Shown piece after piece: positions 1,258-9,312 of a DNA stretch of 9,312 nt; positions within the stretch are counted from its first letter, which is position 1, and every line of letters starts with the position of its first letter. The notes beneath the pieces are model-generated. The model was given only the letters and a program-made list of their open reading frames with translations, did not search any database and was not told the DNA's origin. Position numbers and translations under genes: made by a program. Source of the stretch: Candidatus Desantisbacteria bacterium CG1_02_38_46 (GTDB lineage Bacteria > Desantisbacteria > UBA1551 > UBA1559); the NCBI GenBank assembly GCA_001871015.1, contig MNUO01000009.1, positions 1 through 9,312 on the forward strand, in the 5' to 3' direction.

Positions 1258-2172
1258 ATGGAAATCATAAGAAGAATAAGCAAAATAAGAACAAAACACA
1301 GGGATGGCATTTTAACCATTGGAACATTTGATGGGGTTCACCTGGGTCACCAGGCAATTATAAAGAGTGTGCTCAAGCGCGCCAGGTCCATTAATAAAAA
1401 AAGTCTAATTTTAACTTTCCATCCTCATCCATTAGAAGTTTTTGATTCAGAAAGCCAGTCCATTACCACACTCGAAGAGAAAATAAGAATAATCAGGGAC
1501 CTCGGCGTGGACGTCCTTATTATACTCAGATTTACAAAAAAATTTGCACTGCTTTCTCCCATGCAGTTTATTAGAAAGGTTCTTTTACGCCTTGTTCCTC
1601 GGGAAATTGTGGTGGGCTCCAATCATACCTTCGGGAAGGGAGGAAAAGGTCGCCCTCGGCAACTTAAAGAAGCTGGCAAGGTCCATCACTTTAAAGTGTT
1701 CATTATAAATTTGAAAAAATGCAGGGGAAATTATGTAAATAGTACAAGAATTCGTGCACTCCTTCGTCAGGGAAATGTGAAAAAGGCAGCAGTTGAATTA
1801 GGACGATATTTTTCCCTTATTGGAAGGGTGATGAAAGGGAATGGCCGCGGCGAAATCTTAGGTTTTCCAACTGCCAATTTGAAAGTTACCTCTTCCAATC
1901 TCCTGCCTGAAAATGGTGTTTACGCAGGTTATGTCTGGATTGCTGAAAAAAGATATAGAGGAATTGTTAATGTGGGGTATTGCCCCACATTCATGGAAAA
2001 GTTAAAGCATCCCCGTGTTGAAGTGTTTATTACAGGTTTTAAAGGTAAACTCTATGGCAGGATTTTAAAAGTGGAATTTGTAAAGAAAATAAGAGATGAA
2101 AGAAAATTTAACAGTGTTGAAGCATTGAGGCAACAGATAAAAAAAGATGTGAAATTGGGGGTCCCCAATTAA
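1258..2172 (+). CDS. ribF: Bifunctional riboflavin kinase / FAD synthetase
   Basis: RibF phosphorylates riboflavin to FMN and then adenylylates FMN to FAD in the cytoplasm. The 304-aa length is normal for the bifunctional form. The N-terminal FAD synthetase domain shows the nucleotidyltransferase motif [11 protein letters not shown] at residues 22-32 and the NSTRIR motif at 161-166 (family consensus ISSTxIR). The C-terminal riboflavin kinase domain begins near residue 184, with the GFPTAN motif at 202-207 that binds ATP/Mg and a likely catalytic Glu255 in RVEVF. The family often has His two residues after this Glu, and here it is Phe257. The ATG start is supported by GAGG at 1245-1248, which overlaps the stop of the preceding gene. 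ribF next to rpsO is a widespread bacterial arrangement, often with truB upstream; here the upstream gene is a radical SAM enzyme. The last codons lie in a perfect inverted repeat just ahead of rpsO. Confidence 0.96.
2153..2170 (+). promoter_or_regulatory. Inverted repeat at the ribF stop, next to the rpsO RBS
   Basis: AATTGGGG (2153-2160) and CCCCAATT (2163-2170) are perfect 8-base arms separated by GT; a physical hairpin would open to a 4-base loop. The repeat codes for the last residues of RibF and touches its TAA at 2170-2172. The rpsO ribosome binding site starts at 2173. It lacks a following T-run, so it is not a standard terminator. A role in translational coupling or in S15 feedback control is inference; S15 represses its own message in several bacteria through unrelated leader structures. 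Confidence 0.45.
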
Positions 2173-2452: not shown

Positions 2453-2470
2453 CAATAAAGGTGTCAGGTC

Positions 2471-2499
2471 TTGACATGTTGAGGTGTCAGGACTAAAGT
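2471..2499 (+). promoter_or_regulatory. Possible sigma70-type promoter for pnp
   Basis: A perfect -35 hexamer TTGACA (2471-2476) is followed after 17 bases by TAAAGT (2494-2499), which matches the -10 consensus at four of six positions. Transcription would start near 2506, inside the leader hairpin, so this transcript would lack the 5' arms of both large stems. The match could be chance in AT-rich DNA. Confidence 0.35.
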
Positions 2500-2511
2500 C
2501 CTGAGTTACAT
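2485..2511 (+). repeat. Half-copy of the 48-bp palindromic repeat
   Basis: These 27 bases hold the right-hand hairpin CAGGAC-TAAA-GTCCTG plus the closing AGTTAC of the repeat unit, and are identical to 9016-9042 at the start of the terminal array. The left hairpin of the full unit is absent. The half-copy is embedded in the loop of the larger rpsO-pnp hairpin and faces the same way as the other copies. Confidence 0.8.
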
Positions 2512-2544
2512 GGCAAGACCTGACACCTCAAAAAAGGAGAGTAA

Positions 2545-6483: not shown

Positions 6484-6531
6484 GTAACTCAAACCTTCAG
6501 GTTTGATATCAGGACTAAAGTCCTGAGTTAC
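6484..6531 (+). repeat. Complete 48-bp palindromic repeat upstream of ftsK
   Basis: This is a full unit: closing stem GTAACT/AGTTAC (6484-6489, 6526-6531), left hairpin CAAACC-TTCA-GGTTTG (6490-6505), spacer ATAT (6506-6509) and right hairpin CAGGAC-TAAA-GTCCTG (6510-6525). It is identical to the units of the terminal array that end in C. It ends 4 bases before the ftsK ribosome binding site AAGGAG (6536-6541) and has the same orientation as the other copies. Confidence 0.9.
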
Positions 6532-8909: not shown

Positions 8910-8986
8910 TTTATCCCCCCTTCTTGCTTTCGCTCTTCCACTTCCTCTTACAGAGCCTACTTCGGCAAGAAAGCAGGGGGGATTAA
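8910..8986 (+). repeat. 77-bp element with terminal inverted repeats
   Basis: TTTATCCCCCC (8910-8920) and GGGGGGATTAA (8976-8986) are inverted repeats matching at 10 of 11 positions. Internally TTCTTGC (8921-8927) pairs with GCAAGAA (8965-8971), and GCTCT (8932-8936) pairs with AGAGC (8952-8956), so the whole element can fold as one arm. One strand is strongly pyrimidine-rich, unlike the surrounding DNA. The form fits a very small non-autonomous palindromic element or a structured RNA. No target-site duplication is evident. Confidence 0.45.
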
Positions 8987-8987
8987 G

Positions 8988-9016
8988 TTGGCACGGTTAT
9001 TGCATAATATTGTAAT
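8988..9016 (+). promoter_or_regulatory. Promoter-like sequence reading into the repeat array
   Basis: TTGGCA (8988-8993, five of six against TTGACA) is followed after exactly 17 bases by TGTAAT (9011-9016, five of six against TATAAT). Transcription would begin near 9023, in the first half-unit of the array. No ORF follows within the window, so the product would be a repetitive, highly structured RNA or the leader of a gene outside it. Confidence 0.4.
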
Positions 9017-9040
9017 GTCAGGACTAAAGTCCTGAGTTAC
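9012..9040 (+). repeat. Half-unit at the head of the repeat array
   Basis: GTAA-TG is followed directly by the right hairpin (9019-9034) and closing AGTTAC (9035-9040); the left hairpin and ATAT spacer are missing. The TG replacing TA before the right hairpin is shared with the half-copy in the rpsO-pnp leader, so the half-unit may be a distinct variant and not a random truncation. Confidence 0.8.
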
Positions 9041-9312
9041 ATCTGTATGTTGTAACTCAAACCTTCAGGTTTGATATCAGGACTAAAGTCCTGAGTTAGA
9101 TAATGGCTTATGTAACTCAAACCTTCAGGTTTGATATCAGGACTAAAGTCCTGAGTTACATCTGTATGTTGTAACTCAAACCTTCAGGTTTGATATCAGG
9201 ACTAAAGTCCTGAGTTAGATAATGGCTTATGTAACTCAAACCTTCAGGTTTGATATCAGGACTAAAGTCCTGAGTTACATCTGTATGTTGTAACTCAAAC
9301 CTTCAGGTTTGA
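9041..9312 (+). repeat. Tandem array of 48-bp units with alternating linkers
   Basis: Full units lie at 9052-9099, 9112-9159, 9171-9218 and 9231-9278, and a fifth begins at 9290 and is cut by the window end. Linkers alternate: ATCTGTATGTT (11 bases, at 9041, 9160 and 9279) and ATAATGGCTTAT (12 bases, at 9100 and 9219). The true period is therefore a 119-bp dimer. Units before the 11-base linker end in C and those before the 12-base linker end in G; otherwise all are identical. Each unit can fold as a three-way junction. The 119-bp period is not a multiple of three, so this is not a coding repeat. The near-perfect identity points to recent expansion by slippage or unequal exchange of a dimer. 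Confidence 0.93.

Follow-up and report, generated by a model that had tools for sequence, protein, structure and literature searches.

An ordered cluster of GTAAC-tagged REPs in a Candidatus Desantisbacteria genome and a related branch of RAYT genes in other genomes

Organization of the array

The window analyzed here is a 9,312-nt stretch from a Candidatus Desantisbacteria MAG of 1.73 Mb (88% complete), and its final 295 bases form an array of ten hairpins in alternating orientation (Table 1). Hairpins reading CAGGAC-TAAA-GTCCTG alternate with hairpins reading CAAACC-TTCA-GGTTTG, these two stem variants having the triplets GGA and AAC, and two head-to-head linkers, ATCTGTATGTT (11 bp) and ATAATGGCTTAT (12 bp), alternate strictly to give a period of 119 bp. 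The two full 119-bp copies are 99% identical. This arrangement of alternating hairpins, two alternating linkers and a 119-bp super-repeat had been described in an initial annotation made from the letters alone and is borne out at 9018-9312, with a start at 9018 rather than the 9012 given there. The same annotation recorded that the last base of each unit, C or G, tracks the linker that follows; this base turns out to be the first tag base of a REP, the tag reading CTAAC instead of GTAAC in the REPs adjoining the 12-bp linker on one side. Its proposal of a recent amplification of a dimer fits the array, which is also non-coding as stated. Like that annotation, we reject a CRISPR reading, as the spacers are two recurring linkers and the repeats alternate in orientation.

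Fold z-scores were -4.4 for a single 48-bp unit and -8.2 for the 119-mer. The window contains no Rfam match over the gathering score, and a terminator scan detected no terminator-like site in its array region. The array runs off the contig end, so that 295 bases is a lower bound for its length. Contig C4 of the same genome (L020 6854-7002) likewise ends in a REP array with the 11-bp linker ATCTGTATGTT, and, reversed, it could be a neighbor of the window's contig.

Table 1. GTAAC REPs and associated features in the window and, in the last row, in a related genome.
Feature	Position	Strand	Remark
Lone GTAAC REP inside larger inverted repeat (GGTGTCAGGTCTTG...CAAGACCTGACACC)	2487..2509	-	between rpsO and pnp
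Isolated tail-to-tail GTAAC REP doublet	6484..6531	.	between dut and ftsK
Ordered BIME/REPIN cluster, ten 23-bp GTAAC REPs, alternating orientation, 119-bp super-period	9018..9312	.	cut by contig end
REP type A, GTAACTCAGGACTTTAGTCCTGA	9018..9040	-	
11-bp head-to-head linker ATCTGTATGTT	9041..9051	.	recurs in arrays of contigs C4, C32, C60 and C77 of the window's genome
REP type B, GTAACTCAAACCTTCAGGTTTGA	9052..9074	+	
REP type A, altered tag CTAAC	9077..9099	-	the "final base G" of the initial annotation
12-bp head-to-head linker ATAATGGCTTAT	9100..9111	.	
REP type B	9112..9134	+	
REP type A	9137..9159	-	
48-bp tail-to-tail doublet	9112-9159		2-bp spacer TA
REP type B	9171..9193	+	
REP type A, CTAAC tag	9196..9218	-	
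REP type B	9231..9253	+	
REP type A	9256..9278	-	
REP type B	9290..9312	+	final one before contig end
Inverted REP doublet	1763-1810		CG1_02_49_89, 29,289-bp contig

The 23-bp REP as the conserved unit

Read from its tag, the REP (repetitive extragenic palindrome) has the form GTAAC-TCA-nnn-C-TTYA-G-nnn-TGA, an unpaired tag of five bases followed by a hairpin whose stem is 7 bp long and whose loop has four bases, and the 48-bp unit consists of two such REPs placed tail to tail and separated by TA. The 48-bp doublet alone folds as a three-way junction because its two inverted REPs carry complementary tags (GTAAC/GTTAC). The initial annotation had taken this junction as the basic unit, a reading we reject since lone and tandem REPs are common; as REPs occur alone, in tandem and at various spacings, the conserved unit is the 23-bp REP. 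This was assessed in a 271-kb sample of contigs of the window's genome, chosen partly for carrying REPs, so that REP densities taken from it are biased upward. Lone REPs account for 10 of 28 clusters in this sample, spacers measure 2 or 5 bp between tail-to-tail REPs and 0, 2, 11 or 12 bp between head-to-head REPs, and clusters hold up to eight REPs in a strict count (the window array holds ten).

The tag reads GTAAC in 62 of 69 hairpins in the sample from the window's genome and GTAGC in two; in the same sample it is conserved at 94-97% per base, and conservation drops upstream of it except at a T-rich base directly before the tag. Across all fetched loci, tag and loop are fixed and the variable stem triplet, of which 17 different versions were seen, is complementary in 436 of 474 occurrences, which are not all independent because loci overlap. 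At 23 bp and 250 copies, the element is a high-copy palindrome within the 20-40 bp expected of REPs, and it occurs as inverted pairs, alone or in tandem clusters, as expected of REPINs and BIMEs. Its tag, GTAAC, lies outside the GTAG superfamily (GTAG, or GTGG, GYRG etc.). The initial annotation found no standard class for the array, but it belongs to one, being an ordered REPIN/BIME cluster.

Genomic distribution of GTAAC REPs

With 250 exact copies of the 23-mer pattern, the window's genome carries the element far beyond the array in which it was noticed. It occurs 120 times in Candidatus Desantisbacteria CG1_02_49_89, the sole other genome of the order, and of the phylum, in our comparison; the pattern read backwards has 0 copies in either genome, which places the observed counts well above chance. 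In the 271-kb sample 76 of 82 REPs fall outside ORFs of at least 100 aa, even though coding calls cover about 90% of its sequence, and the family is thus mostly extragenic, as REPs are expected to be.

Several other repeats were observed around these elements. Some GTAAC REPs are enclosed by a longer inverted repeat, GGTGTCAGGTCTTGACA...TGTCAAGACCTGACACC (window 2460-2527; L022, L023, L029, L030, L032 and L033), part of which also follows the long RAYT L064 in CG1_02_49_89. Upstream of the array, the window carries a 20-nt inverted repeat, TTTATCCCCCCTTCTTGCTT / AAGAAAGCAGGGGGGATTAA (8910-8986), which has short partial matches only elsewhere in the 271-kb sample. A second REP family is present in the window's genome, with the tag GTAGTG, stems GTCGAG or GCAGAG and the loop TTTA or CTTG (L021, L024, L026, L028, L030, L032, L033, L035, L037 and L038); a GTAGTG REP also flanks RAYT L228 in another genome, and L228 is likely the cognate of this family.

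GTDB genomes were also scanned for the inverted GTAAC doublet. Among the matches listed are "Deltaproteobacteria" (Desulfobacterota-type) and Syntrophaceae, Nitrospinota/Nitrospinae, Methylomirabilota, Planctomycetota including Scalindua, and Patescibacteria (Magasanikbacteria, Paceibacter). Many of the doublet-carrying genomes among these matches are of groundwater origin, and copy numbers range from 2 to 97 in 23 of the genomes listed.

RAYT genes flanked by GTAAC REPs

RAYTs, the REP-associated tyrosine transposases of the HuH/Y1 type, are established partners of REPs. Contig C23 of CG1_02_49_89 carries two RAYT genes of 160 aa, 86% identical to each other and bracketed by inverted GTAAC REPs, one of which ends at the base preceding the gene's stop codon. 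Their products score 94.7 and 99.7 bits against NCBIfam REP_Tyr_transpos (cut-off 80), and H71, H73 and Y130 are invariant in the RAYT alignment, meaning that the HuH motif and the catalytic Tyr are kept. Among solved structures, the closest match by sequence is 4er8, the E. coli RAYT bound to REP (E 2.8e-5). IS200/IS605 transposases and 4er8 also rank top in a Foldseek search with the predicted C23 RAYT model, which is of modest confidence (mean pLDDT 61.8) and serves for fold recognition only.

We searched 24 genomes with the C23 RAYT protein and counted those matches that had loci. GTAAC REPs lie within ~300 bp of eight of the nine RAYTs that are at least 43% identical to it and flank 0 of the 21 more distant ones (<43% identity). 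The sole exception above this level, L183 (44%), has GTAGT REPs on its flanks. Further RAYTs of lower identity come with GTAGC, GTAGG or GTAG REPs whose stem feet differ. Each RAYT branch thus carries a REP of its own, GTAAC-TCA being that of one branch. In a first tree the GTAAC-flanked RAYTs formed a single group, requiring 1 change versus 7.4 in shuffles, and in a larger tree ten RAYTs with TCA-stem REPs cluster (92/80). On the larger tree the A of the tag requires five changes, because L244 has GTAGC REPs, L184 is mixed and L265, a RAYT outside the cluster, has GTAA. Taken together, RAYT genes flanked by inverted cognate REPs, the arrangement of a REPtron, are found in CG1_02_49_89 and in genomes of other phyla, and none was found in the window's own assembly. 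In a Paceibacter genome (L177, L184), the open RAYT frame overlaps in its 5' part with a pair of GTAAC REPs, which lies ahead of the likely start.

No cognate RAYT was detected in the window's assembly, where the only Y1 candidates found are two larger genes and, at the end of a contig, an IS200-like fragment. The two larger genes, one of which has an internal stop codon, share 28% identity with the REP-flanked RAYT, fall in other branches, and no GTAAC REP lies closer to them than 1.5 kb. As none of the three Y1 candidates is flanked by GTAAC REPs, a RAYT next to REPs in the window's own genome was rejected; the Y1/RAYT gene that the initial annotation envisaged beside the repeat exists in CG1_02_49_89 and in other phyla but not in this assembly. 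A RAYT bounded by arrays could be absent from the assembly, because the MAG is 88% complete and contigs end inside REP arrays. We infer that the organism has or had a cognate RAYT that its assembly lacks, with loss of the gene as the alternative. At L010 1462-2445 the window's genome encodes a RAYT fusion with a DnaA-like C-terminal domain; a 20-nt inverted repeat, AGGGTCAGACCTCAACATCT, encloses it, much as in the TIR-flanked "TIRYT" genes that Di Nocera et al. describe.

Tag sequence and the residue at position Q95

Residue Q95 of the E. coli RAYT makes contact with the GTAG tag, and the REP-linked subclasses conserve it well (PMC8266576, PMC6006769). Among GTAG-flanked RAYTs with data, 30 of 32 have Q at this position; the two others are L184, which also has imperfect GTAAC REPs, and L215, which has effectively one hairpin. 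GTAA-flanked RAYTs have H, Y or A there in seven of eight cases, the exception being L265 with Q. L244, nested among GTAAC RAYTs, combines GTAGC REPs with Q, a pairing that fits a joint change of tag and residue. The tree provides just three to four independent comparisons of tag and residue, with which a sign test cannot reach 0.05, and with so few independent changes the covariation is no more than a suggestive lead towards co-evolution. We put forward, tentatively, the possibility that a separate RAYT clade in at least five phyla switched its guide-tag specificity from GTAG to GTAA, Q95 being replaced by H, Y or A and the REP population being remade to match. If true, a single-strand transposase would have had its guide sequence recoded in nature.

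Proposed origin of the array and alternative explanations

In our assessment the array is very probably an ordered REPIN/BIME-type cluster of 23-bp GTAAC REPs, non-autonomous elements served by the RAYT clade described above, the array having grown locally by tandem duplication. A RAYT, an HuH single-tyrosine nuclease of the IS200/IS605 superfamily, would recognize the single-stranded, folded REP through its tag and TTYA-loop hairpin, cut near it and join it at another site, probably acting on DNA that is single-stranded during replication, and REPs and inverted REP pairs would thereby spread through intergenic DNA. The 119-bp array would then have expanded locally as a unit of two doublets was duplicated in tandem, by slippage or unequal recombination. 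The proposed RAYT action on the GTAAC REP, and the mobility of the REP, are drawn from homology to the RAYT/REP systems of E. coli and Stenotrophomonas, and the tandem-duplication step is likewise inferred. Of the three options offered in the initial annotation, the one in which a REP-like family spreads by way of a transposase gene located elsewhere draws support from the copy number, the intergenic placement, the inverted doublets and the REP-flanked RAYTs in relatives. The nearly invariant tag and the paired stem triplets also speak for our account; against it count the lack of a cognate RAYT in the window's assembly, the GTAGT REPs beside L183 and the five changes of tag A on the larger tree.

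A rather unlikely alternative is that the REPs have become fixed in the host, where they would serve as hairpins in RNA (protecting 3' ends, or in attenuation or termination of transcripts) or as binding sites for a host protein, with only a historical link to a RAYT. Such roles have been reported for E. coli REPs (PMC8266576, PMC6006769), and here the REP stems are kept paired, one REP lies between rpsO and pnp, and 22 of the 28 REP clusters in the 271-kb sample lie between co-directional genes. However, co-directional genes border 139 of the sample's 152 intergenic gaps in any case. The asymmetric tag is conserved and lies outside the hairpin, the terminator scan of the array region was negative, and a role of this kind does not predict that REPs flank RAYT genes in other phyla.

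The remaining alternatives concern the outer repeats and the assembly. It is improbable that the elements are MITEs that move by means of the outer inverted repeat (GGTGTCAGGTCTTGACA...) and carry REPs along as passengers: several REPs of the window's genome do lie inside the longer inverted repeat, and part of its motif follows RAYT L064 in CG1_02_49_89, but most REPs, including the entire window array, are without it, as are the GTAAC REPs found in other phyla. That the array is an assembly artefact or a collapsed repeat is scarcely credible. Both the window's contig and at least one other, C4, terminate in an array of the GTAAC REP family, yet units and linkers recur in the interior of many long contigs, bordered on either side by unique sequence, and in other genomes, which confines the doubt to the copy number at the window's contig end.

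Relation to known systems and conclusions

The GTAAC family resembles the GTAG-tagged REPs (Di Nocera et al. 2013, PMC3733652; Nunvar et al. 2010, PMC2817692) in being a palindrome of 20-40 bp with an unpaired tetranucleotide at one end, in its hundreds of extragenic copies in inverted pairs and clusters, and in its link to RAYT genes flanked by inverted REPs; it differs in the tag, which is GTAG there and GTAA(C) here. Di Nocera et al. 2013 describe tag degeneracy at positions 2 and 3, plus GTGG; the text "GTAA" is absent from that paper, and its examples do not include the host clades of GTAAC REPs (PMC3733652). The REPINs of P. fluorescens SBW25 (Bertels and Rainey 2011, PMC3116915) likewise form inverted doublets and ordered tandem clusters of alternating units with two alternating spacings, but their spacers are tens of bp long versus 0-12 bp here, where lone REPs are also common. 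Group 3 REPtrons (S. maltophilia, Marinomonas; Corneloup et al. 2021, PMC8266576) share a short, perfectly paired hairpin after the tag, a RAYT of ~160 aa, D at the E100 position and a retained R104; unlike them, the present family has A at tag position 4, and its RAYTs have H, Y or A at the Q95 position. Mutation of the S. maltophilia tag from GTAG to GTAC led to complete loss of cleavage (PMC8266576). The E. coli BIMEs and TnpA-REP (4er8) similarly combine alternating inverted REPs and linkers with a homologous HuH transposase, although the E. coli REPs are longer and have a bulge, and the RAYT similarity is remote (E 2.8e-5).

In conclusion, the ordered REPIN/BIME cluster is an already known form; what is unusual is the tag outside the published GT[AG]G rule, the spread over several phyla and the matching RAYT branch. 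We found no mention of a GTAA(C) tag in the published REP/RAYT full texts searched, and annotation tools that require GTAG or GTGG would overlook the family. The finding extends REP/RAYT systems to a tag outside GT[AG]G and to several mostly uncultured groups. RAYT tag reading has so far been approached by mutating a few model systems, and the GTAA clade and its sister GTAG clades, which share TTYA-loop hairpins, offer a natural comparison on how RAYTs read the tag.
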